Positions 39,757 through 63,960 of a stretch of DNA of 64,000 nucleotides are shown here, one piece after another (the stretch's first letter is position 1; the number at the start of each line of letters is the position of its first letter). Below the pieces are notes generated by a model. That model worked only from the letters and a program-made list of their open reading frames with translations. It ran no database searches and was not told the origin of the DNA. The DNA comes from Armatimonadota bacterium (GTDB taxonomy: Bacteria > Sysuimicrobiota > Sysuimicrobiia > Sysuimicrobiales > Humicultoraceae). The position numbers and the translations under genes were made by a program. The stretch spans positions 2,749,906-2,813,905 of the forward strand of contig JAVKHP010000001.1 in assembly GCA_031459855.1 (NCBI GenBank). The letters run 5' to 3'.

Positions 39757-40833
39757 ATGGACATCACCGATCTGTTGATCCTCACCAAGCAGGCCGGGGC
39801 CTCCGACCTCCACCTGACGGTGGGCATCCCACCCAAGATGCGGCTCAACGGCGAGCTGGTGACGGTGCCGGACGCACCGGTGCTGACCAAGGAGGACCTC
39901 CACGAGATGGTCTACGAGGTGCTCACCGACAGTCAGAAGAGCCGCCTGGAGGAGCACTGGGACCTCGACTTCTCGGTCGAACTGCAGAACCTCGGTCGGT
40001 TCCGGGTCAACGCCTTCCGGCACCGGCTGGGCGAGGGGATCGTCTTCCGGGTTATCCCCTCCAAGATCAAGTCGCTCGACGAGCTCGGGCTGCCTCCCAT
40101 CCTGGGTGAGCTCGCTCTGCAGGACCGTGGCCTGATCCTGGTCACCGGGCCTACGGGCTCGGGGAAGTCCACCACGCTGGCGTCGATGGTGGACCTCATC
40201 AACGACCGGCGCACGTGCCACGTCATCACCATCGAAGATCCCATCGAGTTCGTCCACCAGCACCGCAAGAGCATCGTGAACCAGCGTGAGGTGGGCATGA
40301 ACGCCAAGTCCTTCGCCCAGGCGCTGCGCGCCGCGTTGCGTGAAGACCCTGACGTGATCCTGGTGGGCGAGCTGCGCGACCTCGAGACGATCTCCATGGC
40401 GCTCACCGCTGCGGAGACCGGCCACCTGGTCATGGCCACGCTGCACACCTCCAGCGCCAGCAAGACCATCAACCGCGTGATCGATGTCTTCCCGAGCACA
40501 CAGCAGGAGCAGATCCGCGTGCAGCTCGCAGAAAGCCTGCTGGCCGTCGTGGCCCAGACCCTGTTGCCCACCGCCGACGGCAAGGGCCGCGTGGCGGCCG
40601 TCGAGGTGCTCGTCGCCACGCCCGCCGTGCGCAACATGATCCGCGAGAACAAGGTGCACCAGATCCCCTCGGCCATTCAGACCGGGAGCAAGGACGGCAT
40701 GCAGAGCCTCGACCAGTCCCTGCGGAACCTCCTCAAGGCCCGCAAGATCACGCTCGACGTGGCCCAACGCTGGGCCGTGGACAAGTCCGCGTTCGCCGAG
40801 GGCCTGGCCGCCGCTGGAGCAGGGAGGCTGTGA
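39757..40833 (+). CDS. pilT: Twitching motility ATPase PilT (first copy)
   Basis: 358 residues. Hexameric ATPase that powers pilus retraction. N-terminal PAS-like domain with GASDLHLTVGIPPKMRLNG. Walker A GPTGSGKST at residues 131-139, Asp box EDPIEFVHQHRKSIVNQREV, Walker B VILVGELRDLETISMALTAA, His box HLVMATLHTSSASKTINRVI, and the PilT-type motif TPAVRNMIRENKVHQ near the end (usual form AIRNLIRE). Translated with the next gene through a GTGA overlap. Two further PilT-type genes are present at 40830 and 55800. Confidence 0.95.
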   Translation: MDITDLLILTKQAGASDLHLTVGIPPKMRLNGELVTVPDAPVLTKEDLHEMVYEVLTDSQKSRLEEHWDLDFSVELQNLGRFRVNAFRHRLGEGIVFRVIPSKIKSLDELGLPPILGELALQDRGLILVTGPTGSGKSTTLASMVDLINDRRTCHVITIEDPIEFVHQHRKSIVNQREVGMNAKSFAQALRAALREDPDVILVGELRDLETISMALTAAETGHLVMATLHTSSASKTINRVIDVFPSTQQEQIRVQLAESLLAVVAQTLLPTADGKGRVAAVEVLVATPAVRNMIRENKVHQIPSAIQTGSKDGMQSLDQSLRNLLKARKITLDVAQRWAVDKSAFAEGLAAAGAGRL

Positions 40834-41933
40834 TCACCATGAGTCCGGTGACCGACGAGCGGACCGCTGCCATGCGGATCGTCGACCTGCTGCAGCCCAT
40901 GGAGGCTCTGGACGCCACCGACCTGTACGTGAAGGCCGGAACGCCGCCCATGTACCGCATCGACGGCCGGGTCACGTCCAACGGCCTGCCGGTCCTGAGC
41001 CGCGACGACACCGAGCGCCTCGCCCTCGAGATGCTCGATGCGACGCAGCAGGCCCAGTTCCGCGCCGAGAACGCCGTCGACCTGGCCTACAGCCTGCCGG
41101 GCGTCGGCCGGTTTCGGGTGAACGTCTACCGACAGCGCGGCTCGGTCGCGTTCGTGGCGCGCCGCGTGCGCCTCACGATTCCGTCGTTCGAGGAGCTCCG
41201 GCTGCCCGATGTCCTGAAGGACCTCAGCTTGCGCACCCGCGGCCTCGTGCTGGTGACCGGACACGCCGGCACCGGCAAGTCGACCACGCTGGCCGCGATG
41301 GTCGACTACCGGAACGCCCACAAGGACGGGCACATCGTCACCGTCGAGGATCCCATCGAGTTCCTCCACCCCGACAAGAAGAGCATCGTCAGCCAGCGCG
41401 AGGTCGGCACCGACACCCCCAGCTTCCCCCAGGCCCTGCGCGCGGCGCTGCGGCAGACCCCCGACGTCTTGCTGATCGGGGAGATGCGCGACCAGGAGTC
41501 GGCCGAGGCGGCTCTGTACTTCGCTGAGACCGGCCACCTCGTGCTCAGCACCCTGCACTCGGTGAACGCCCCGCAGGCCATCGAGCGCATGCTGGCGTTC
41601 TTCCCGACCGACCACAGCCAGGAAGTGCTGCACCGCCTCTCGCTCACCCTCGAGGCCATCATCTCCCAGCGCCTGGTCCCGCGGGCCGACGGCCGCGGGC
41701 GGGTCGTGGCCATCGAGGTCATGCTGGCCACACCCCGGATCCGCGACCTCGTCAAGAAGGGCGAGATCGGCTCGATCAAGCAGGCCATCCAGATGGGCAC
41801 CCAGGAGGGCATGCAGACCTTCGACCAGGCCCTCTACCGCCTGCACAAAGACGGGCTGATCAGCTACGAGGACGCCCTGCGGGCGGCGGACTCGCCCAAC
41901 GACCTCAAGTTGAAGATCAAGGGGCTGGCCTGA
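40830..41933 (+). CDS. PilT/PilU-like retraction ATPase (second copy)
   Basis: 367 residues from GTG 40830, overlapping the pilT stop by GTGA; ATG 40839 is possible. Same domain order as PilT: ATDLYVKAGTPPMYRIDGRV, Asp box EDPIEFLHPDKKSIVSQREV, Walker B VLLIGEMRDQESAEAALYFA, His box HLVLSTLHSVNAPQAIERML. The Walker A is GHAGTGKST at residues 144-152, unlike the GPTGSGKST of PilT, and the AIRNLIRE motif is replaced by TPRIRDLVKKGEI. This is the pattern of PilU-type accessory retraction ATPases, which often follow pilT. About 214 nt separate it from the coiled-coil gene. Confidence 0.88.
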   Translation: MITMSPVTDERTAAMRIVDLLQPMEALDATDLYVKAGTPPMYRIDGRVTSNGLPVLSRDDTERLALEMLDATQQAQFRAENAVDLAYSLPGVGRFRVNVYRQRGSVAFVARRVRLTIPSFEELRLPDVLKDLSLRTRGLVLVTGHAGTGKSTTLAAMVDYRNAHKDGHIVTVEDPIEFLHPDKKSIVSQREVGTDTPSFPQALRAALRQTPDVLLIGEMRDQESAEAALYFAETGHLVLSTLHSVNAPQAIERMLAFFPTDHSQEVLHRLSLTLEAIISQRLVPRADGRGRVVAIEVMLATPRIRDLVKKGEIGSIKQAIQMGTQEGMQTFDQALYRLHKDGLISYEDALRAADSPNDLKLKIKGLA

Positions 41934-51777: not shown

Positions 51778-52274
51778 GGCGAACGGTCCTGGGGCCCTGC
51801 AGGATATCCGACGTACACAATCGTACGTGCAATGTCGACCGTGCCGTCATGGGCCACGCGAAACCGCCACGGGTGCGTCGCTGTCCAGCGCTCCACCACT
51901 GCGGCATCAAATCGTCGGCCCGCGTGCAGGACGTGGACCCGGCGAACGTGGAACCAGGGGCCGGCAGGGAAGAACCGTCCTTCCGGGTCGATGTCCCTCG
52001 CAGGGTACAACACGCTGGCAGTTTGAAATCCTTGTCGGAGCAGGTTCTGGAGTTGCACGAACCGCATCACAGAATCGTCAGACCACCAGCCGGTCGTCTG
52101 GTGGAACACGAGTGCCAGGCACGCGAACACGACCGCGGCCCCCGCGATCACACGGCGGAGGGCGTGCGCAACCCGGACAGTGCTTCGCGCCACATCGCTG
52201 TGCGCTGTGTCTCCAAGGGCCGCTTTGGTGCACAGTCGGGCAAGCGGCGCTCCGTAGTCGCTCAAGTCGCTCAC
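51774..52274 (-). CDS. Short paralogue of the GT-C protein lacking its membrane core
   Basis: 166 residues from GTG 52274, overlapping the upstream gene by GTGA, and overlapping the full-length paralogue downstream by GTGA. The N-terminal 110 residues match the full-length protein (VVFACLALVFHQTTGWWSDD, SVMRFVQLQNLLRQ, DIDPEGRFFPAGPWFHVRR), then the sequence jumps to the C-terminal region (AAVVERWTATHPWRFRVAHD, GTVDIARTIVYVGYPAG). About 430 residues of membrane core are absent, yet the frame is intact. Either a translated deletion derivative or a regulator made from the two ends. One TM helix is predicted. Confidence 0.72.
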   Translation of the reverse strand: MSDLSDYGAPLARLCTKAALGDTAHSDVARSTVRVAHALRRVIAGAAVVFACLALVFHQTTGWWSDDSVMRFVQLQNLLRQGFQTASVLYPARDIDPEGRFFPAGPWFHVRRVHVLHAGRRFDAAVVERWTATHPWRFRVAHDGTVDIARTIVYVGYPAGPQDRSP

Positions 52275-53827
52275 GGCCGTCCGGCCCTGGGCCGATAGAC
52301 CTTCGACTCCCACAGGAACACGTACACCCACCGGAAATCCCTGCCCTCGCGTTCGACGAAGTACGGGCGGACGAGTTCCTGGAATCGCAGCCGTGCCTCC
52401 ACGCCCAACGGAATCGTCGCCACGATCCACATGCGCGGGTGTTGCGCTGCCAACGCGTGCAGTTCCTGCTGTTTGGCGAGCCACTCCGCGCGAGGCGTCG
52501 TGCCTTTGGGCAGCAACTCCCGGGGGTTCAACTGCGCTCTGACCTGCGGACCGGAAAAGTAGTAATCGAACGGTAGATAGGCAAATGCCGGAATGTACAT
52601 GATGAGGTCGTCTGGCCGAGCGCGTTCCGCCACGTATGCGGCCGCCCCGCGCCAGTCGTAGGGCGACGGCCCGTAGTAGATGGTACCGAGGGCAGGCAGG
52701 CTGTAGACGACGACCACGAGTCCCGCACCTGCGGCCAACGCGGTCCGCCGCAGCTCGGGCGCACCGCGGCCAATGCCCCATATTCCGCCGGCGAGCAAGA
52801 TCGCGTACGGTGGGATCACAAAGGAGAAATACCGATCGTAGAAGACGTTCATCTTGATCGAGACGAGCCCTGCAACGGCCACCGGCAGCGCCAGGTAGGA
52901 GACGAGGAACGCCCTGGCCCGCGGCGGAACGCTGAAGATCCCCAGCACCAGCAGCAGCAGGAAAGGCAGCACGACGGCGAGTTTCCCCAGGAGGGGCAGG
53001 AGGCTCCGCTGGTGATAGCTGCCCATCCCCAACAACTCGCCCCCAAAAGACAGCAGCCCCACGAGGTCGGCGAGTGCGGAGAGGCCAAACGGCGGCCTGA
53101 CGATCGGCCAGGCGCGCTGGTGGTGCAGCTGCACCCAGAGCACGGGTACGAAGGGCAGGTAGGCGACGGCGACGGCCGCTCCAGCCGCTAGCCACGGCCG
53201 CAGGGCATGTCGAGCGTAGGCTGCCACGTACACTGCATGGGCCAGCAGCACGAGGAACGCGAAATGGTGGGTGTAGACGGCCGCGGCGACCGCGCCAGCG
53301 TAGCCGACCCAGTATCTGCGCTGGCCGCTATCCAGCGCCAGCCACAACGCGTACGTGGCGCCCAGGGCGAAGACCGCCAGGAACGGATACATCCGGGCGT
53401 CGCGCGAGGCCATCAGCTGGAAGGGCGAGATGGCCACCAGCGCGGCGGCGGTGAGCGCGCACCGTTCGTCGACGAGGCGACGCGCGAGCAGATACGTGAG
53501 TCCGACGAGCACCACCCCCATGAGCGCTGAGGGCAGGCGAAGGGCCAGTTCCGACGTGCCGAAGAGCTTGATCCACAGTCCCAGCACGGCGTAGTAGAGC
53601 GGGGGATGCATGTCCTCCGTGCGCAGGCGGCGCAGTAGTTCGGGCAAGTGCTGCTGGGCCAGAAAGAGACTGTACGCTTCGTCGAACCAAATGCTGGTGC
53701 GCCAGAGGTCCCACACGCGCAAGGCTACCGCCCCCAGCAGCACCAGCGAGACCGCGAGCCGGCCAGACACCACCCGGCGCTCTTGCGTGGCACCGCTGGA
53801 CGGCGACTCAGACCAAGGAAGTCTCAT
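52271..53827 (-). CDS. GT39/ArnT-like membrane glycosyltransferase
   Basis: 518 residues from ATG 53827 (GTG 53839 possible). Multi-pass protein of the PMT_2 type: first TM VSGRLAVSLVLLGAVALRVW, catalytic loop RTSIWFDEAYSLFLAQQHLP (Asp-Glu), and MHPPLYYAVLGLWIKLFGTS. ARRLVDERCALTAAALVAIS and QLMASRDARMYPFLAVFALG are also family typical. A C-terminal soluble part follows residue 400 (SPYDWRGAAAYVAERARPDD). It uses a polyprenyl-phosphate sugar donor. It is first in an overlapping three-gene unit with the short and long GT-C paralogues, directly downstream of pilA. Confidence 0.88.
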   Translation of the reverse strand: MRLPWSESPSSGATQERRVVSGRLAVSLVLLGAVALRVWDLWRTSIWFDEAYSLFLAQQHLPELLRRLRTEDMHPPLYYAVLGLWIKLFGTSELALRLPSALMGVVLVGLTYLLARRLVDERCALTAAALVAISPFQLMASRDARMYPFLAVFALGATYALWLALDSGQRRYWVGYAGAVAAAVYTHHFAFLVLLAHAVYVAAYARHALRPWLAAGAAVAVAYLPFVPVLWVQLHHQRAWPIVRPPFGLSALADLVGLLSFGGELLGMGSYHQRSLLPLLGKLAVVLPFLLLLVLGIFSVPPRARAFLVSYLALPVAVAGLVSIKMNVFYDRYFSFVIPPYAILLAGGIWGIGRGAPELRRTALAAGAGLVVVVYSLPALGTIYYGPSPYDWRGAAAYVAERARPDDLIMYIPAFAYLPFDYYFSGPQVRAQLNPRELLPKGTTPRAEWLAKQQELHALAAQHPRMWIVATIPLGVEARLRFQELVRPYFVEREGRDFRWVYVFLWESKVYRPRAGRP

Positions 53828-53880
53828 CCCACCCAACACTCGCAGTCAGGTAGACCGTATCCACCACGGCGTCCAGCGTT

Positions 53881-53990: not shown

Positions 53991-54401
53991 CTAGAAGTTG
54001 CAGCCTTGCTGGGAATCTCCGTTCCCGAACAAGATGAGGGAGCAAGTATTATTCTCGACAGGCGTGCCGGTGGATCCAGTAAGAGTCCACGTAACCGTCT
54101 GAGTACCGTCACCGGCCCCCGTCGGCGTATTCCAACTGGCCCCCGACGGCATGACGAAGCCGAGCGACGTCAGGGACGTGTTGAAACGATCGTACTCCTG
54201 ATAGTACGCCCACGACAGCGTCTTCAGCTCCTGCAGCAGGTTCTGCGCCTCCGCCTTGTACGCCCGCTTCCGGGCGCCCAGGTACCGGGGCACCGCCAGC
54301 GCCAGCAGAATCCCCAGAATGGCCAGCACGACGACCAGCTCGATAAGGGTGAACCCTCCCTGGCCGGCGCGCCGCTTGCGCTTCAGGAAGAAGTTATACA
54401 A
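53991..54401 (-). CDS. pilA: Type IV major pilin
   Basis: 136 residues from TTG 54401; an AGGAGG site lies 9 nt upstream, and no ATG or GTG gives better spacing. Prepilin leader of 18 residues with four basic residues (YNFFLKRKRRAGQGG) and cleavage before FTLIELVVVLAILGILLALA, with Glu at mature position 5. The mature pilin is about 118 residues with a short C-terminal domain. Two Cys (NNTCSLILFGNGDSQQGCNF) could form the usual C-terminal disulfide loop. Thr/Ser-rich stretches (TQTVTWTLTGSTGTP) could be O-glycosylation targets. The gene is downstream of pilC with a 170-nt gap that should hold its own promoter. Confidence 0.92.
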   Translation of the reverse strand: MYNFFLKRKRRAGQGGFTLIELVVVLAILGILLALAVPRYLGARKRAYKAEAQNLLQELKTLSWAYYQEYDRFNTSLTSLGFVMPSGASWNTPTGAGDGTQTVTWTLTGSTGTPVENNTCSLILFGNGDSQQGCNF

Positions 54402-54571
54402 GATACCCAACCTCCTTCGTACGATAATTACGACTCCAGCAGTCACACGTGCCTGCGTACCGTCCCGGCCTCATCACCTCCCTGCGCCCGCGAATCGCAC
54501 CACCCGGTTCACTGCCCAACTGCCGCACGCCCTAGACCTGACGCCCGAGGCCGGCGCGCCAGGTCCCGACC

Positions 54572-55795
54572 CTACCGGACCCCTCCGCCCGTCGCCAGGT
54601 TGAAGATCGGTAGGTACAGCGAGATCACCATCGCCCCGACCACCACGCCCATGAAGATGATCAAGATGGGCTCCAGCAGCGAGGTCAGGCTCTGGACGGT
54701 GGCCTCGACCTCGACGTCGTAGAAGTCGGCCACTTTCTGCAGCATCTGCTCCAGGGCGCCGGTCTCCTCGCCCACCCGGGTCATCTGCACGACCATGGGC
54801 GGGAAGATCCCCGAGAACTGCAGGGGGATGGCGATGGACTGGCCCTCCCGGATGCTGGACCGCACGGCGTCGACGGCCTCGCCGATCACCACGTTGTCGA
54901 TGGCCTTGGCCACGACCTCCAGCGACTGCATGATGGGCACGCCGCTGGCGATGAGCGTACCCAGGGTGCGGGTGAACCGGGCGATGACGATCTTGCGGTT
55001 CAGCTCGCCCAGCACCGGGGCCCGCAGCTTCAGGCGGTCGTAGCGGGCGCGGCCCGCGGGGGTCTTCAGGTAGCGGCGCAGCACCCAGACGACCGCCCCC
55101 AGCCCGCCGAGGAACACGTACCAGAACCGCCGGAGCACGTAGCTGACGCCCATGGCGATCTGGGTGGGCAGGGGCAGGTCGCCCGAGCCGCCCAGCTCGC
55201 GGAAGAGCGTCTCGAACTGGGGGAGGATCACAATGGTCATGAAGAAGAGGCCGCCCAGGGCGGCCACGGTCAGCAACGCGGGGTAGACCATGGCCGAGCG
55301 GATCTTGCTGCGCAGGGCCTGCTCCTTCTCGAGGTAGGCGGCCAAGCGTTCGAGGACCTCGTCGAGCACGCCGCCGGTCTCCCCGGCCTTCACCATGTTG
55401 ACGTAGAGCGAGCTGAACGCCTGGGGGTGGCGGCCCAGGGCGTCCGACAGCGGGCGCCCGGCCTCCACGTCCTGGCGCACCTGGGTGATGATCTGCCGCA
55501 GGCGTTTGTTGGAAGTCTGCTGCTCGAGGATGGACAGGGTGCGGACCAGCGAGAGGCCCGCGTTCACCATGGTGGCGAACTGACGCGAGAAGACGGCCAG
55601 ATCCTTGAGCCCGATGCCGAACAGGCTCTGCAGCGACTCCAGCAGGTCGCGCCGCTCGACGGTGCGCTCGAGGCTCGTGATGAAGAAGCCCATGTCGCGC
55701 AGGCGGTCGATGACCACCGCGTCGTTGTCGGCCTCGATGACCCCGGTGATCAGGCGCCCGGTACTGTCCTTGGCGCTGTAGCGGAAGACCGCCAT
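54572..55795 (-). CDS. pilC: Type IV pilus platform protein PilC
   Basis: 407 residues, the standard length. Inner-membrane platform that PilB and PilT turn. Two GspF domains: FSRQFATMVNAGLSLVRTLS with MVKAGETGGVLDEVLERLAA, and ARFTRTLGTLIASGVPIMQS with MTRVGEETGALEQMLQKVAD. TM helices at about residues 170-190, 215-245 and 380-400 (ILIIFMGVVVGAMVISLYLP). The N-terminus FRYSAKDSTGRLITGVIEAD is typical. It starts 4 nt after the stop of pilT3. Confidence 0.95.
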   Translation of the reverse strand: MAVFRYSAKDSTGRLITGVIEADNDAVVIDRLRDMGFFITSLERTVERRDLLESLQSLFGIGLKDLAVFSRQFATMVNAGLSLVRTLSILEQQTSNKRLRQIITQVRQDVEAGRPLSDALGRHPQAFSSLYVNMVKAGETGGVLDEVLERLAAYLEKEQALRSKIRSAMVYPALLTVAALGGLFFMTIVILPQFETLFRELGGSGDLPLPTQIAMGVSYVLRRFWYVFLGGLGAVVWVLRRYLKTPAGRARYDRLKLRAPVLGELNRKIVIARFTRTLGTLIASGVPIMQSLEVVAKAIDNVVIGEAVDAVRSSIREGQSIAIPLQFSGIFPPMVVQMTRVGEETGALEQMLQKVADFYDVEVEATVQSLTSLLEPILIIFMGVVVGAMVISLYLPIFNLATGGGVR

Positions 55796-55799
55796 GCCC

Positions 55800-56993
55800 C
55801 TACCTCCGCGTGGGCCGGGCGATGGGCTCGACCTCGCCGCCGGCCTCGCGAATCATCTTGCGCAGCTCCTCGGGGTGGATCGCCCGGGCCAGCGCGTCCT
55901 CGAGCGAGATCATCTTGTTCAGGTACAGGTCGCGCAGCGACTGGTCCATGGTCTGCATGCCGTACTGCGAGCCGGTCTGGATCGCCGTCTCGATCTGGTG
56001 GGTCTTGGCCTCCCGGATGAGGTTGCGGATCGCCGGCGTGGCGATCATGACCTCGACGGCGGGCACGCGCCCGATCTCCTCGAGGCTGGGCCAGGTCTGG
56101 GCGACGGCGCTGCCCAGTCGGGAGCGCAGCGTCGGCCGCCCCTCGCCGTCGCCGTCGGCGCGGCCACGGTAGCGCAGGTTGGGCAGCAGCTGCTGGCTGA
56201 TGACGGCCTCGAGGACCATCGAGAGCTGGATGCGGATCTGCTGCTGCTGGTAGGGCGGGAAGACGTCGATGATGCGGTCGATGGACTGCGCCGCGTTGGC
56301 GGTGTGCAGGGTGGCGAACACCAGGTGCCCGGTCTCGGCGATGGTGAGGGCGGCGCTGATGGTCTCCAGGTCGCGCATCTCGCCGATCAACACCACGTTG
56401 GGGTCTTCCCGCAGGACCGCCCGCAGGGCATTGGGGAACGACTGGGTGTCGAAGCCCAGCTCGCGCTGGTTGACGATGCTCTTCTTGTGCTGGTGGAGGT
56501 ACTCGATGGGGTCCTCGACGGTGACGATGTGCGCCGAGCGCTCGTTGTTGATGAAGTTGATCATGGAGGCCAGGGTCGTGGACTTCCCGTGCCCAGTGGG
56601 CCCGGTCACCAGCACGAGCCCGCGGGGCTTGCGGCACAGCTCCTTGAGGATCGGCGGCAGGTTCAGGGCCTCGATGGTGGGGATGACCATGGGGATGACC
56701 CGGATGGCGATGCCCACGGCTCCCCGCTGCCGGTAGATGTTCACGCGGAACCGGCCCAGTCCCGGCACGCCGTAGGACAGGTCCAGCTCCCAGAACTTCT
56801 CGAACTTCTGCTTCTGGAAGGTGTTGAGCATGCTGTAGCCGAGCTGGAACGTGTCCTCGGGCGTGAGGACCTCGTACTGCTCCATGGGCACCAGGCGCCC
56901 CCAGACCCGCATCGTGGGCTTGATGCCCGAGGTGAGGTGCAGGTCGGAGGCCTGGGCCGCCACGACCTCGCGCAGCAGATCGTCGATGTGCAT
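55800..56993 (-). CDS. pilT: PilT retraction ATPase (third copy) with an insertion
   Basis: 397 residues from ATG 56993 (GGGAGGCGAG upstream). Walker A GPTGHGKST at 131-139, Asp box EDPIEYLHQHKKSIVNQREL, Walker B VVLIGEMRDLETISAALTIA, His box HLVFATLHTANAAQSIDRII and a perfect ATPAIRNLIREAKTHQIETA. A segment of about 30 residues (RYRGRADGDGEGRPTLRSRL and on) sits between QQLLPNL and RVPAVEVM, where other PilT proteins have only a few residues. It lies between pilB and pilC in the main pilus operon, so this is probably the core retraction motor. Confidence 0.94.
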   Translation of the reverse strand: MHIDDLLREVVAAQASDLHLTSGIKPTMRVWGRLVPMEQYEVLTPEDTFQLGYSMLNTFQKQKFEKFWELDLSYGVPGLGRFRVNIYRQRGAVGIAIRVIPMVIPTIEALNLPPILKELCRKPRGLVLVTGPTGHGKSTTLASMINFINNERSAHIVTVEDPIEYLHQHKKSIVNQRELGFDTQSFPNALRAVLREDPNVVLIGEMRDLETISAALTIAETGHLVFATLHTANAAQSIDRIIDVFPPYQQQQIRIQLSMVLEAVISQQLLPNLRYRGRADGDGEGRPTLRSRLGSAVAQTWPSLEEIGRVPAVEVMIATPAIRNLIREAKTHQIETAIQTGSQYGMQTMDQSLRDLYLNKMISLEDALARAIHPEELRKMIREAGGEVEPIARPTRR

Positions 56994-57022
56994 ACTCGCC
57001 TCCCTCGACCGTCCCGGGGTCG

Positions 57023-58732
57023 CTACTCGACGAACACGACCCGGAGCATCTCTTCCAGGGACGTGGCGCCCGCCAGGACTTTGGCCACCCCGTCCTGCTG
57101 GAGCGTGCGCATGCCGTTGGCCACCGCCTGCCGCTTGAGGACGTCGGCCGGGGCCTGCTTGACCACCAGCGCCCGCAGCGCGTCGTCCATCACCATGATC
57201 TCGAACAGCCCCACCCGGCCCCGGTAGCCCAGGTGGTTGCACAGCTCGCAGCCGCGGGCGGTGTAGATCACAGGCGGCGGGGCTCCCGGGGCGGCCAGCC
57301 CGTAGCGCGCCACGACTTCCGGTGGTGGGGTCCGGGGCTCGCGGCAGTGCGGACACAGCACGCGCACCAGGCGCTGCGCCACTACCCCGATCACCGACGA
57401 CGCCGCCAGGAAGGGCTCGATGCCCATGTCCACCAGCCGCACGACGGCCCCGGGCGCGTCGTTGGTGTGCAGCGTCGAGAGCACCAGGTGGCCGGTGAGC
57501 GCGGCGTGGATGGCGATGCGCGCGGTCTCCTCGTCGCGGATCTCGCCCACCATGATGATGTCGGGGTCCTGCCGCAGGAACGCCCGCAGGCCCGTGGCAA
57601 AGGTGAGGCCGGCCTTGGGGTTGATCTGCACCTGGCTGATGCCGCTGAGCTGGTACTCTACCGGGTCCTCGATGGTGATGATGTTGACCTCGGGCCTGTT
57701 CAGGCGGTTCAGCGCCGCGTAGAGGGTCGTGGTCTTGCCGCTGCCGGTCGGCCCCGTGACGAGGATGATGCCGTAGGGCTTGGCGATCAGGTTCTCGAAG
57801 CGCGGCAGGTCCTCGGGCAGCAGCCCGAGCTTGTCGATGCTCACCAGGGCCGCCCGCTTGTCGAGGATGCGCATGACCACCTTCTCGCCGAACACCGTGG
57901 GGATCGTCGAGACGCGCAGGTCGATCTCGCGGTTGTCGACGCGCAGCTCGATGCGCCCGTCCTGGGGGACCCGGCGCTCGGCGATGTTCATCGCCGCCAT
58001 GATCTTGATCCGGCTCACCGTGGCCGCCTGCACGTGCTTGGGTGCGGTCATGACGTTGTAGAGCGTGCCATCGATGCGGTAGCGGATGCGCAGGTGGTTC
58101 TCCTGGGGCTCGACGTGGATGTCGCTGGCACCCTGCCGTACCGCCTGTACGAGCATCAGGTTCACCAGGCGCACGATGGGCGCGTCGTCGACGATCTCCC
58201 GCAGCCGGTCGACCCCGGGCTCCTCCTCGCCCACGTCGGCCGGACGGATCTCCTGGATCACCTGGTCGATCGAGGTGCCCAGCGCCGGGTACTGGTTGAC
58301 GGCGTAGTCGAAGCCCTCCTGGGTGACGACCGCCGGGATGACCTCGCGGTTCACCCGCCGCCGGATGTCGTCGAGGGCCAGGACGTCCAGGGGATCGACC
58401 ATACCCAGAACCAGCGTGTCGCCCTGCAGGCGCACGGGCACCACCTGGTAGAGCCGAATGAGCTCCTCCGGCAGCAGCGTGAGCACGTCCTCGGGAATCG
58501 CGGTGGCCTTGAGGTTCACGTACTCGAGCCCGAGCTGGCTCGCCATGGCCCGGGCGATGGCTTCCGGGGTGGCCATCCCCTGGGCGACCAGCACCCGCCC
58601 CAGGCGCTCGCCGGTGCGCTGCTGGATCTGCAGTGCCTGCTCCAGCTGCGCCGGGGTGAGCAAGCCGGCTTCGACCAGCAGCTCGCCGAGCTTGACGCGG
58701 CGGCGCGCGGTGATGCTCCTAGAGGGTTTCAT
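57023..58732 (-). CDS. pilB: Pilus extension ATPase PilB (first copy)
   Basis: 569 residues. N-terminal MshEN domains (KLGELLVEAGLLTPAQLEQA, QIQQRTGERLGRVLVAQGMA), which in some homologues bind c-di-GMP, then the GspE-like N2 region (VVPVRLQGDTLVLGMVDPLD). ATPase: GASDIHVEPQENHLRIRYRI, Walker A GPTGSGKTT at 327-335, Asp box EDPVEYQLSGISQVQINPKA, Walker B IIMVGEIRDEETARIAIHAA and His box HLVLSTLHTNDAPGAVVRLV. A zinc site has CPHC and CELC about 40 residues apart. The start overlaps the DUF6812 gene by 14 nt. Confidence 0.95.
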   Translation of the reverse strand: MKPSRSITARRRVKLGELLVEAGLLTPAQLEQALQIQQRTGERLGRVLVAQGMATPEAIARAMASQLGLEYVNLKATAIPEDVLTLLPEELIRLYQVVPVRLQGDTLVLGMVDPLDVLALDDIRRRVNREVIPAVVTQEGFDYAVNQYPALGTSIDQVIQEIRPADVGEEEPGVDRLREIVDDAPIVRLVNLMLVQAVRQGASDIHVEPQENHLRIRYRIDGTLYNVMTAPKHVQAATVSRIKIMAAMNIAERRVPQDGRIELRVDNREIDLRVSTIPTVFGEKVVMRILDKRAALVSIDKLGLLPEDLPRFENLIAKPYGIILVTGPTGSGKTTTLYAALNRLNRPEVNIITIEDPVEYQLSGISQVQINPKAGLTFATGLRAFLRQDPDIIMVGEIRDEETARIAIHAALTGHLVLSTLHTNDAPGAVVRLVDMGIEPFLAASSVIGVVAQRLVRVLCPHCREPRTPPPEVVARYGLAAPGAPPPVIYTARGCELCNHLGYRGRVGLFEIMVMDDALRALVVKQAPADVLKRQAVANGMRTLQQDGVAKVLAGATSLEEMLRVVFVE

Positions 58733-58961
58733 GGCGCTCCATCATCATCACGACGTGGGCCTTGTTGACCAGCACGACCTCGGTCTCGTAGAGCAACCGG
58801 CCGTCCAGCGAGAAGAGCCGGGCGGACGTGATGGGCAGGAAGTCCTTGGCCGCATTGAGCCGGTCGGACAGGCGCGCCGTCGAGGGGAGGTGCAGGTCGC
58901 CCTCGATGCGGTGGAAGGGGGTGAACACCACCACCTGCTCGCGATCGAGCTGCACCTTCAT
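58719..58961 (-). CDS. DUF6812-like small protein
   Basis: 80 residues, starting in an ATGA overlap with the merR stop and ending 14 nt inside pilB. A small beta protein: VVVFTPFHRIEGDLHLPSTA, RLSDRLNAAKDFLPITSARL, FSLDGRLLYETEVVLVNKAH. This matches my memory of DUF6812, short proteins with no known function. Tight overlap on both sides points to a role in the pilus operon, perhaps as an assembly or regulatory partner of PilB. Confidence 0.72.
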   Translation of the reverse strand: MKVQLDREQVVVFTPFHRIEGDLHLPSTARLSDRLNAAKDFLPITSARLFSLDGRLLYETEVVLVNKAHVVMMMERHETL

Positions 58962-59275
58962 CGGCTGCTCCCCCGACGTTCGGCGCCCGCCTCGACGGGC
59001 CCGACGGGCGCCACCGCCCTACCGGCCGCGGGTCCCCCGCCCTGCTCGACCAGCCGCTGGATCCCCTTCAGACTAATGCCCCGATCCACCAGAGCCTTGA
59101 CCCAGCGGATGCGCTCCACGTCCTCCTCGCTGTAGAGCCGGTGGCCCCCGGGGGTGCGCGCCGGGGAGAGCAGGTTGTACTGGTCCTCCCACGCGCGGAT
59201 CCGGCGCGGGTTGACACCCGTCAGGTGCGCCACCGTGCGGATCGGGTAGATGGGGACGTGCCTGTCGACGATCAT
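58958..59275 (-). CDS. MerR-family transcriptional regulator
   Basis: 105 residues from ATG 59275, overlapping the dnaB-like stop by ATGA. Winged HTH of MerR type: YPIRTVAHLTGVNPRRIRAW, EDQYNLLSPARTPGGHRLYS, EEDVERIRWVKALVDRGISL with KGIQRLVEQ. After the DNA-binding domain only a Pro/Ala/Arg tail of about 25 residues follows, with no ligand domain or Cys cluster. A likely target is its own operon; two GGGAACTTCCC-like palindromes lie upstream of the first gene (60939-60990). Confidence 0.88.
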   Translation of the reverse strand: MIVDRHVPIYPIRTVAHLTGVNPRRIRAWEDQYNLLSPARTPGGHRLYSEEDVERIRWVKALVDRGISLKGIQRLVEQGGGPAAGRAVAPVGPVEAGAERRGSSR

Positions 59276-60846
59276 CGGGGCCTCCCTCCACTGCCGCCCG
59301 TGCGCTGCGCGGCGGCGGGTTCGCGGGGCGGGCCGTAGCCCAGGTCGCGCAGGTACGTGTAGATCTCCTGCAGCTTCGCGAACCCGTGGTAGTCGGGACG
59401 GTACTCGTCCTCGAGCTTGTAGTCCAGCTCGATGAACTTGTTGAGCGTCACGAAGAACGCGAACTGCACCGTGTTCGACTCGGCCTCGGGGGCGTCGCGG
59501 TTCTTGTCGACGAACAGGTTCACGATGTCGACCCGCGGCATCAACCCCGGGTCGAACCCCTCGGCTTTGGCCCGGGCCTCGATGAGCTGGTGCAGGTCGG
59601 CCGTGGCCTTCCAGTCCTTGGCCAGCACCATGGCCACGTCGAGGTCGTACTCCAGGTCGCCGCTGCCCATGGCATGGTGCATCGTCGGCCGGTTGAACGG
59701 GTTGAAGACGTCGGTGTCCTCGGCGGGGCGTTCGTCTAACTTGCACCCGTCCTTGTCCAGCGGCGAGATGGCGAACACCGGGCAGTTCAGCTCCAGGCTG
59801 AGCTCGGCCAGCTCGGTGGAGATGCGGTCGGTGCGGGCCTTCCAGTCCTCCAGGTGCTCGGTGAGGGGGATCTTCTGCAGGTAGTCGAAGAACAGCACCA
59901 CCTCGTTGGTCTGGAACTCCTGCATCAGGTTGTGGGCGTGAGCGCGGATGCGGTCGAGGGTGTCCTTCCGCCCCGCCTCGACCAGGTGCAGGTAGGGCGC
60001 GTACCGCGCCACGGCGGCTTTGGCCAGCTGCACCCGCGGGCCCACCGGCCCCAGGGCGTCGGCGCCCGCCAGGATCGAGGCAGGGTTGATGCCGACCTCC
60101 TTGGCGATGAGCCGCGCGGCCAGCACGCGCCGCGTCTGCTCCCACGAGTAGTAGAGGACCGGGATCTTGTGGTTGGCCGCCACGTGGCAGGCGAGCTCCA
60201 GGGCCAGGTTGGTCTTGCCCCGTCGGGGCGCGCCGGCCAGCCCGTAGTAGAAGCCACGCCGCAGCCCCGAGAGCAGGGCGTTCAACCGGTCGAACGGGCT
60301 CACCGAGTAGCCCAGCTGCCCGTTGTGCTCCGGGCGGGGCCCGGTCTCGTGCAACAGCGGCGCAAACGCCTCGGCGATCGGCTGCACCTGCCGCCGGACG
60401 CGGCGGCGCTGGATCTCCAGCAGCCGGTGGATCGCCTCGGCGGTCACCTGCATGATGTCGGCCTGCTGGCCGTCAGGACGAAAGAGGTGGGCGCCCAGCA
60501 GCTCGTGGACCTGCACCAGCAGGTGGCGGCTCTCACGGGCCTTGAGCACCTCGATCTGCGCCACAACCTCGCCGGCCGTGGCGGGCGCCGCCTGGAGCAC
60601 CGTGGCCACGTAGCGCTCCATCTCGGCGGTCAGCAGCCCGCGGTCGACCAGGCGGGCCCGCAGCCCGGACTCGTCCACCACCGCCGAGGGCACCGCGTGC
60701 AGCTCCAGCAATGCCTTCGCTACGCGCCGCGCCAGCGGCGAGGTCAGCAGGTCGGGGTGGAACCCCTCGGTGACCGCCAGGGCGATCACGTGCCGGTCGC
60801 GCAAGAAAGCGCTCAGCAGGCGCACCTCGGACTCATAGAGGTCCAC
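59272..60846 (-). CDS. DnaB-family RecA-like ATPase in the pilus operon
   Basis: 524 residues from GTG 60846 (GGAGGT about 10 nt upstream). N-terminal domain like DnaB-N: SEVRLLSAFLRDRHVIALAV, TEGFHPDLLTSPLARRVAKA. The C-terminal domain follows the DnaB helicase plan: Walker A GAPRRGKTNLALELACHVAA near residue 230, PVLYYSWEQTRRVLAARLIA, Walker B VVLFFDYLQKIPLTEHLEDW, LELNCPVFAISPLDKDG (sensor), SGDLEYDLDVAMVLAKDW and DIVNLFVDKNRDAPEAESNT. The P-loop has Arg-Arg where replicative DnaB usually has Ser-Met. It is the first gene of a run merR-DUF6812-pilB-pilT-pilC with ATGA overlaps, so it is probably pilus- or DNA-uptake-linked rather than the main replicative helicase. Confidence 0.82.
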   Translation of the reverse strand: MDLYESEVRLLSAFLRDRHVIALAVTEGFHPDLLTSPLARRVAKALLELHAVPSAVVDESGLRARLVDRGLLTAEMERYVATVLQAAPATAGEVVAQIEVLKARESRHLLVQVHELLGAHLFRPDGQQADIMQVTAEAIHRLLEIQRRRVRRQVQPIAEAFAPLLHETGPRPEHNGQLGYSVSPFDRLNALLSGLRRGFYYGLAGAPRRGKTNLALELACHVAANHKIPVLYYSWEQTRRVLAARLIAKEVGINPASILAGADALGPVGPRVQLAKAAVARYAPYLHLVEAGRKDTLDRIRAHAHNLMQEFQTNEVVLFFDYLQKIPLTEHLEDWKARTDRISTELAELSLELNCPVFAISPLDKDGCKLDERPAEDTDVFNPFNRPTMHHAMGSGDLEYDLDVAMVLAKDWKATADLHQLIEARAKAEGFDPGLMPRVDIVNLFVDKNRDAPEAESNTVQFAFFVTLNKFIELDYKLEDEYRPDYHGFAKLQEIYTYLRDLGYGPPREPAAAQRTGGSGGRPR

Positions 60847-61028: not shown

Positions 61029-61135
61029 AGGATATGCCCAGAAGGACAGGGTGCTAGTCGCCGCGCATCTGGCCGGCAACGAGGGCTTTGGTAGGACGCG
61101 CACGTCTTCGAAGCGGCCGCAGTTGGGCATATCCT
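61029..61135. promoter_or_regulatory. 12-bp inverted repeat flanking the divergent pilus promoters
   Basis: AGGATATGCCCA (61029-61040) is the exact reverse complement of TGGGCATATCCT (61124-61135). The right arm is part of AGTTGGGCAT (61121-61130), the motif found upstream of pilM and pilT, and ends 6 nt before the second pilB ATG. The left arm faces the dnaB-like operon. Long spacing (83 nt) argues for two protein or promoter sites in opposite directions rather than a hairpin. Confidence 0.5.
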
Positions 61136-61141
61136 TTCGAG

Positions 61142-63376
<2,235 letters not shown>

Positions 63377-63382
<6 letters not shown>

Positions 63383-63538: not shown

Positions 63539-63895
63539 CTAGACCAGCGCGGCGGCCAGCTGGCTGTTGCGCCGCATCTCGAGCCGGATGCGTCCCAGGT
63601 TCGCCTGCTTGCCGCCCACGACGACCAGCATCGCGTCGGGGCCAGCCGGCCCGATGGCCACGGGGCCCTCGTCGAACTCCAGGAGCAGGTTCCGGATGGT
63701 GCCGCGGACCATCTCACGGCCCATGGAGTCGGCGGCGGCGATGTTGCTGGCCACGATGGCACCCACAGCCTCCAGGTCCACGCTCTCCTCGCTGGTCACG
63801 CCTTCGACCACGAACCCGTCCCGGCTGACCACGAGCGCCGCCAGCACCCCGTCGACCTTGGCCAGGTCGGCCAGCACGTCCTTGAGCTGCGACAT
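63539..63895 (-). CDS. Roadblock/LC7 domain protein (MglB-like)
   Basis: 118 residues from ATG 63895, chosen because GGAGG lies 8 nt upstream; ATG 63901 is too close to it. The protein is a single Roadblock/LC7 domain: VLADLAKVDGVLAALVVSRD, GFVVEGVTSEESVDLEAVGA, ADSMGREMVRGTIRNLLLEF and AMLVVVGGKQANLGRIRLEM. Such proteins act with small Ras-like GTPases of the MglA type, where MglB sets cell polarity and pilus placement. No MglA gene is in the window, but it may lie beyond the edge. The 156-nt gap to pilB2 (convergent) holds no gene. Confidence 0.88.
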   Translation of the reverse strand: MSQLKDVLADLAKVDGVLAALVVSRDGFVVEGVTSEESVDLEAVGAIVASNIAAADSMGREMVRGTIRNLLLEFDEGPVAIGPAGPDAMLVVVGGKQANLGRIRLEMRRNSQLAAALV

Positions 63896-63960
63896 TCCCA
63901 TACCCTCCTTCGCAAACCTCCGGCAGACTGCGCTCCGGGGCGAGGTCAGTGCGTCGTGCG

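Follow-up and report, generated by a model that had tools for sequence, protein, structure and literature searches.

Why does a gene of the DnaB helicase family stand at the head of a type IV pilus (T4P) operon? This arrangement occurs in a 64,000-nucleotide stretch of the genome of an Armatimonadota bacterium (GenBank assembly GCA_031459855.1, contig JAVKHP010000001.1, positions 2,749,906 to 2,813,905; hereafter the window), where the operon opens with a DnaB-like superfamily 4 (SF4) ATPase that we call DnaBL. We found that DnaBL belongs to a clade separate from replicative DnaB, keeps the residues of the ATP site, has lost a DNA-contacting arginine, and stays beside T4P genes in three families of the host's order. 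We tentatively read it as an accessory ATPase of the pilus motor; a nucleic-acid role unconnected with the pilus is nearly as likely and is the main rival.

A DnaB-like gene opens a type IV pilus operon

The operon genes of the window are as follows, with profile matches judged against Pfam/NCBIfam cut-offs.

59272..60846, minus strand: DnaB-like (SF4) ATPase DnaBL, 524 residues, first gene of the operon
58958..59275, minus strand: MerR-family helix-turn-helix protein (MerR_1 above cut-off)
58719..58961, minus strand: DUF6812 protein, 80 residues (DUF6812 above cut-off)
57023..58732, minus strand: PilB-type extension ATPase with an MshEN domain (T2SSE and MshEN above cut-off)
55800..57026, minus strand: PilT-family ATPase, PilT-op, distinct from the tandem pilT genes described below (PilT above cut-off)
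54572..55795, minus strand: PilC platform protein (T2SSF above cut-off)
53991..54446, minus strand: type IV pilin-like protein (N_methyl above cut-off)

These coordinates and profile matches confirm the original prediction, made from the letters of the window, of a DnaB-like gene joined to pilus genes by ATGA overlaps. The order on the minus strand is DnaBL-MerR-DUF6812-PilB-PilT-PilC-pilin. DnaBL starts with GTG behind a ribosome-binding-like GGGAGGT, and its stop codon shares an ATGA with the MerR start (59275-59272). A second ATGA joins MerR and DUF6812 (58961-58958), DUF6812 and PilB overlap by 14 nt, and PilT and PilC follow within a few nucleotides. The two ATGA overlaps and the 14-nt overlap imply translational coupling and co-expression. 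The operon PilB scores just below the cut-off of the PilB equivalog TIGR02538. The DnaBL frame is kept across the order at 47-75% identity, with fewer nonsynonymous than synonymous changes (dN < dS) in six pairs, showing that it is more than a chance frame. Our literature search found no paper on a DnaB-like gene within a pilus operon, none on DUF6812 and none relevantly joining DnaB_C with pilus ATPases, and a PADLOC scan for defence systems gave no match for the DnaBL of the window.

DnaBL is distinct from the replicative helicase

Pfam listed DnaB_C (4.4e-25) and AAA_25 for DnaBL, and no KaiC-family model. Full-length DnaB models cover residues 5-474 at scores far under the equivalog cut-off (TIGR00665, 115.7 bits vs 385.25). 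The N-terminal domain alone had no Pfam score. An AlphaFold2 model of fair quality (mean predicted local distance difference test, pLDDT, 79.7; predicted template-modelling score, pTM, 0.63) aligned over both domains with full-length DnaB chains (VIA-align Z up to 28.9), which identifies the N-terminal domain as DnaB type. In a tree of 24 DnaBL and 19 replicative DnaB sequences, the two groups were fully apart with support of 100/100. DnaBL is about 20-25% identical to replicative DnaB and is not linked to rplI.

The P-loop and linker of DnaBL, which differ from those of replicative DnaB, had led the original prediction to expect a second, ordinary DnaB, and this gene was found: away from the pilus operon, the same genome carries rplI followed by an ordinary dnaB with an intein at its P-loop. 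DnaBL is thus not the sole DnaB of the genome, and the low TIGR00665 score and separate clade argue that it is no orthologue of the replicative protein. Its assignment as a non-replicative DnaB paralogue within the SF4/DnaB superfamily is well supported. The intein-bearing dnaB lies at L005:5865-8354 (G000 C1 near 950 kb), and most genomes of the order give split DnaB matches, which suggests that they have a P-loop intein too.

The genome also holds RadA with its KNRFG motif. DnaBL resembles RadA/Sms in being a DnaB-type SF4 ATPase with K-N-R in the finger motif, and some DnaBL proteins of other phyla share the N-terminal zinc ribbon. It differs in having a DnaB N-terminal domain and KNRDAP instead of KNRFG; Pfam finds no Lon-like C-terminal domain in DnaBL, and the window protein has no N-terminal Cys motif. 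Of the comparisons that had been proposed as a check, profile and structure matches place DnaBL in the DnaB fold, and its sequence has neither the KNRFG of RadA nor a match to a KaiC-family model.

The ATP site is kept and the DNA-binding loop is altered

We aligned the 24 DnaBL and 19 replicative DnaB sequences in the numbering of Geobacillus DnaB (GkDnaB). The corresponding motifs of the window protein are listed here.

60211..60234, minus strand: P-loop GAPRRGKT (residues 205-212), found at 79/79 loci checked with Ser allowed for Thr
60133..60144, minus strand: WEQT (235-238), with the catalytic Glu at GkDnaB E241
59872..59892, minus strand: Walker B FFDYLQK (319-325), with Asp at GkDnaB D320
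59638..59670, minus strand: MGSGDLEYDLD (393-403), at the position of the DnaB loop that binds single-stranded DNA (ssDNA), with Met and Gly for DnaB R381 and E382
59488..59508, minus strand: DKNRDAP (447-453), with the lysine/arginine fingers at GkDnaB K418/R420

K216, T217, E241, D320, K418 and R420 were identical in all 24 DnaBL and all 19 DnaB sequences. DnaBL thus shares with replicative DnaB the two-domain architecture, Walker A and B motifs, catalytic Glu and lysine/arginine fingers, and differs by its motifs WEQT, GSGD.EYD.D and DKNRDAP and by the replacement of Gln362 and Arg381. All 24 DnaBL have Pro, Ser or Ala in place of the sensor glutamine Q362, which is present in 19/19 DnaBs and is replaced at all 79 DnaBL loci checked. 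The ssDNA-contact arginine R381 occurs in 19/19 replicative DnaBs vs 0/24 DnaBL, and position 382 is Gly in 24/24 DnaBL (at the 79 loci this position is not independent, as the search pattern fixes GxGD.EYD).

Position 381 separates the branches of the family. All 34 sequences of the host's order have Met or Val here. In families f20, f26, f27, f118 and f261, 22 members have Thr, except for one with Val, and 23/23 sequences of families mostly with an N-terminal zinc ribbon have Lys. A basic residue is thus gone in the window's branch and kept in another. The mostly zinc-ribbon subfamily comprises loci L164, L167, L168 and L209-L227, and of the two copies in family f265 one lacks the zinc ribbon. 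In DnaB, R381, E382 and G384 touch ssDNA phosphates and K418/R420 complete the ATP site of the neighbouring subunit (PMC6391071); the contacts come from the side chain of R381 and from backbone amides at 382 and 384, and in H. pylori DnaB a Lys occupies position 381 (PMC8421360). Judged by these residues, a grip on ssDNA appears less likely for DnaBL without the loop Arg or Lys, although the backbone contacts could remain.

Three families of the order keep DnaBL beside pilus genes

Two further genes of the window belong to the conserved neighbourhood.

61088..63382, plus strand: PilB2, a second PilB-type ATPase with TPR and MshEN domains, divergent from the operon
63539..63901, minus strand: Roadblock/LC7 protein

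T4P linkage is kept in three of the four DnaBL-bearing families of the order (f1, f4 and f7), in differing arrangements. At the 11 loci of f1, a divergent PilB2 is followed by DnaBL, MerR, DUF6812, PilB, PilT and PilC where the contig allows, with DUF6812 undetected at one locus. In f4, DnaBL follows a divergent PilB2 and precedes PilT and PilC, and in f7, PilB2, DnaBL, PilB, PilT and PilC all run in one direction. In G038, also of f7, DnaBL instead lies at another T4P site amid minor pilin genes, pilD and pilMNO. In the f7 genome G040 the gene is split across two contig ends with T4P genes on each. Within about 8 kb, what f1, f4 and f7 have in common is mostly families of pilus genes, together with DnaBL, Roadblock, MerR and a few unassigned ones. 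Among 35 genomes of the order at least 85% complete, DnaBL and operon-type PilT (at least 72% identical where present, partial copies counted) agreed in 33, being both present in 28 and both absent in five; the discordant genomes were G017 and G026.

A recurring module lies 5' of the pilus genes, consisting of a sigma factor, MerR, Roadblock proteins and the TPR/MshEN PilB2 (L171:3674-8091; L063:2211-6837). Family f1 differs in having its MerR gene behind DnaBL.

A putative accessory ATPase of the pilus motor

In three families DnaBL is a regular neighbour of PilB, PilT and PilC, which suggests a supporting or regulatory part in the pilus. We tentatively prefer to see it as a non-replicative SF4 ring ATPase that was recruited within the host's phylum to assist or regulate the pilus motor. 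The original prediction had raised a conversion into a pilus ATPase or regulator as one option, and this is the option tentatively favoured in this phylum.

Proteins of the DnaB type with these residues at the ATP site assemble into hexameric rings and hydrolyse ATP at the interfaces between subunits. DnaBL, with a DnaB-type N-terminal domain and an SF4 RecA-fold ring domain, would accordingly form a hexamer that turns over ATP. With its DNA-gripping side chains gone in the host lineage, it is probably no classic helicase and may have lost DNA translocation. Its gene would have been placed in the T4P cluster within the host's phylum and mostly stayed there, and the ring may contact and serve the PilB/PilT motor in the way that the ArlH ring does for ArlI, the motor ATPase of the archaellum. 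The KaiC-like ArlH binds ATP and has a stimulating effect on ArlI, a precedent for a RecA-fold ring assisting a PilB-like motor (PMC8978795). Like DnaBL, ArlH (FlaH) is a ring ATPase of the RecA fold whose gene accompanies those of a PilB-type motor ATPase and a platform protein; this context is found in f1 and f7, and in f4 DnaBL stands beside pilT, pilC and the divergent PilB2. The likeness is one of analogy only, since ArlH is KaiC-like and does not hydrolyse ATP, whereas DnaBL is of the DnaB family with an N-terminal domain and hydrolysis residues. PilB and PilT (T2SSE) are also hexameric ATPases, of the same operon, but belong to another ATPase family, and DnaBL has no T2SSE match. The more specific proposal, in which a DnaB-family ring without a DNA grip would be a dedicated T4P accessory motor or switch of one phylum, a bacterial counterpart of ArlH built on the helicase branch of the RecA fold, is rather doubtful.

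Limits of the pilus linkage

Several findings weigh against a pilus role. DnaBL retains the hydrolysis residues, unlike ArlH. In family f2 the T4P operon is otherwise intact and DnaBL is located elsewhere, and genomes G014 and G026 have PilB2-PilB with DnaBL undetected. The agreement in 33 of 35 genomes is uncorrected for relatedness of the genomes, and linked genes can be expected to be lost together. Several phyla have the family, mostly among unrelated genes. Nearly all DnaBL-bearing genomes tested outside the order carry PilT or other T4P ATPases, but with a PilT baseline of 80% we rejected this co-occurrence in distant phyla as evidence of a pilus role. Conservation of the linkage in relatives, which had been proposed as a check, holds for f1, f4 and f7 but fails for f2 and does not extend generally to other phyla.

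The neighbours outside the order are diverse. A Germane-domain gene lies near DnaBL in f20 and f26, and in f26 (L129-L132, L134, L135) DnaBL and the Germane gene adjoin dnaA-dnaN-recF-dciA, probably the replication origin. DnaBL adjoins biotin-carboxylase genes in f118 and f261, and in f118 its opposite flank holds accB and efp. In f96 it lies between gltX and nusB, with pilB behind. In the phylum with mostly zinc-ribbon copies it is often beside lpx/bam-like genes and a TPR protein, names that were read from sequence and not from profile search. In G178, three genes separate DnaBL from a codirectional pilB behind it, an arrangement that is no more than suggestive. The PilB near DnaBL in L214 and L216 was discounted as linkage because it is not operonic. 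An assignment of the f27 neighbours as rpoB/rpoC proved wrong: one has Cu_amine_oxidN1 and glucodextranase domains and the other gives a weak match only. DnaBL was detected in 39/386 sampled genomes vs 310/386 for PilT, and was undetected in many near-complete genomes. Given these counts, the unlinked f2 copies and the unrelated neighbours in other phyla, DnaBL is not a universal or core pilus part, and the family is not pilus-specific.

Alternative roles for DnaBL

The main rival is a general housekeeping nucleic-acid ATPase, acting in repair, recombination or on RNA, whose place in the pilus operon is incidental or serves co-expression only. This explanation is nearly as likely. It accounts for DnaBL amid unrelated genes in several phyla (accB/accC, dnaA-dnaN-recF-dciA, gltX/nusB), and in the mostly zinc-ribbon subfamily 23/23 sequences have Lys where DnaB has R381, as in H. 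pylori DnaB (PMC8421360). It fits less well in the host's order, where the basic residue is gone in 34/34 and where DnaBL of three families stays linked to T4P genes despite rearrangements and a change of most other neighbours.

A role in regulating or remodelling the origin or the replicative helicase, for example in mixed rings with DnaB or together with DciA, is unlikely for DnaBL. The DnaB architecture, N-terminal domain included, and the f26 copies next to dnaA-dnaN-recF-dciA would agree with such a role. However, the dnaA-side location is limited to f26 and has the Germane gene between, the Germane-DnaBL neighbourhood is also found elsewhere in f20, and the many near-complete genomes without DnaBL speak against it.

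The DNA-uptake role raised by the original prediction is disfavoured. Here DnaBL would process DNA entering via the pilus, for which RadA, a DnaB-type helicase acting in transformation, is a precedent (PMC5512693). The T4P context fits, and ComEC is encoded by the host genome and most genomes of f1, f2 and f4. However, ComEC was undetected in 7/7 searched f7 genomes keeping DnaBL (92-97% complete), and in these seven DnaBL adjoins T4P genes; together with the loss of the ssDNA-contact Arg, this makes a role in transformation improbable. A normal RadA with KNRFG is moreover already present in the genome. Across f7 (G016, G019, G022, G025, G028, G031, G034, G036, G038 and G040), no genome gave a ComEC match although T4P genes were present, whereas almost every other genome of the order has ComEC.

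An origin of DnaBL as a leftover DnaB of a phage or mobile element is highly improbable and was rejected. Phage DnaB models score it similarly to bacterial models, but identity to its best phage matches is about 25%, and among IMG/VR contigs none encodes a relative at the DnaBL motifs. The gene is conserved across the order, and its grouping in the tree follows bacterial families.

Other pilus-related genes in the window

Two tandem pilT genes of canonical type (window 39763-41903) form a second pilT locus, separate from the operon-type PilT. On the 3' side of the pilin, a gene for a large membrane protein (52271-53839) resembles PMT-type glycosyltransferases; the PMT_2 match itself was obtained for a gene near pilins at L063. 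The window gene may take part in pilin glycosylation.

Significance of the DnaBL clade

DnaBL represents a widespread clade of DnaB paralogues, apparently not described before, in which the ATP site is intact and the DNA-binding loop is altered. What is new is the definition of this clade, together with the changes in its residues and its uneven association with pilus genes. Even if the pilus role is wrong, DnaBL is an uncharacterised DnaB paralogue of several phyla that is likely annotated as replicative helicase. If the pilus role is true, a ring motor of the replication type would be convertible into a part of a surface machine.

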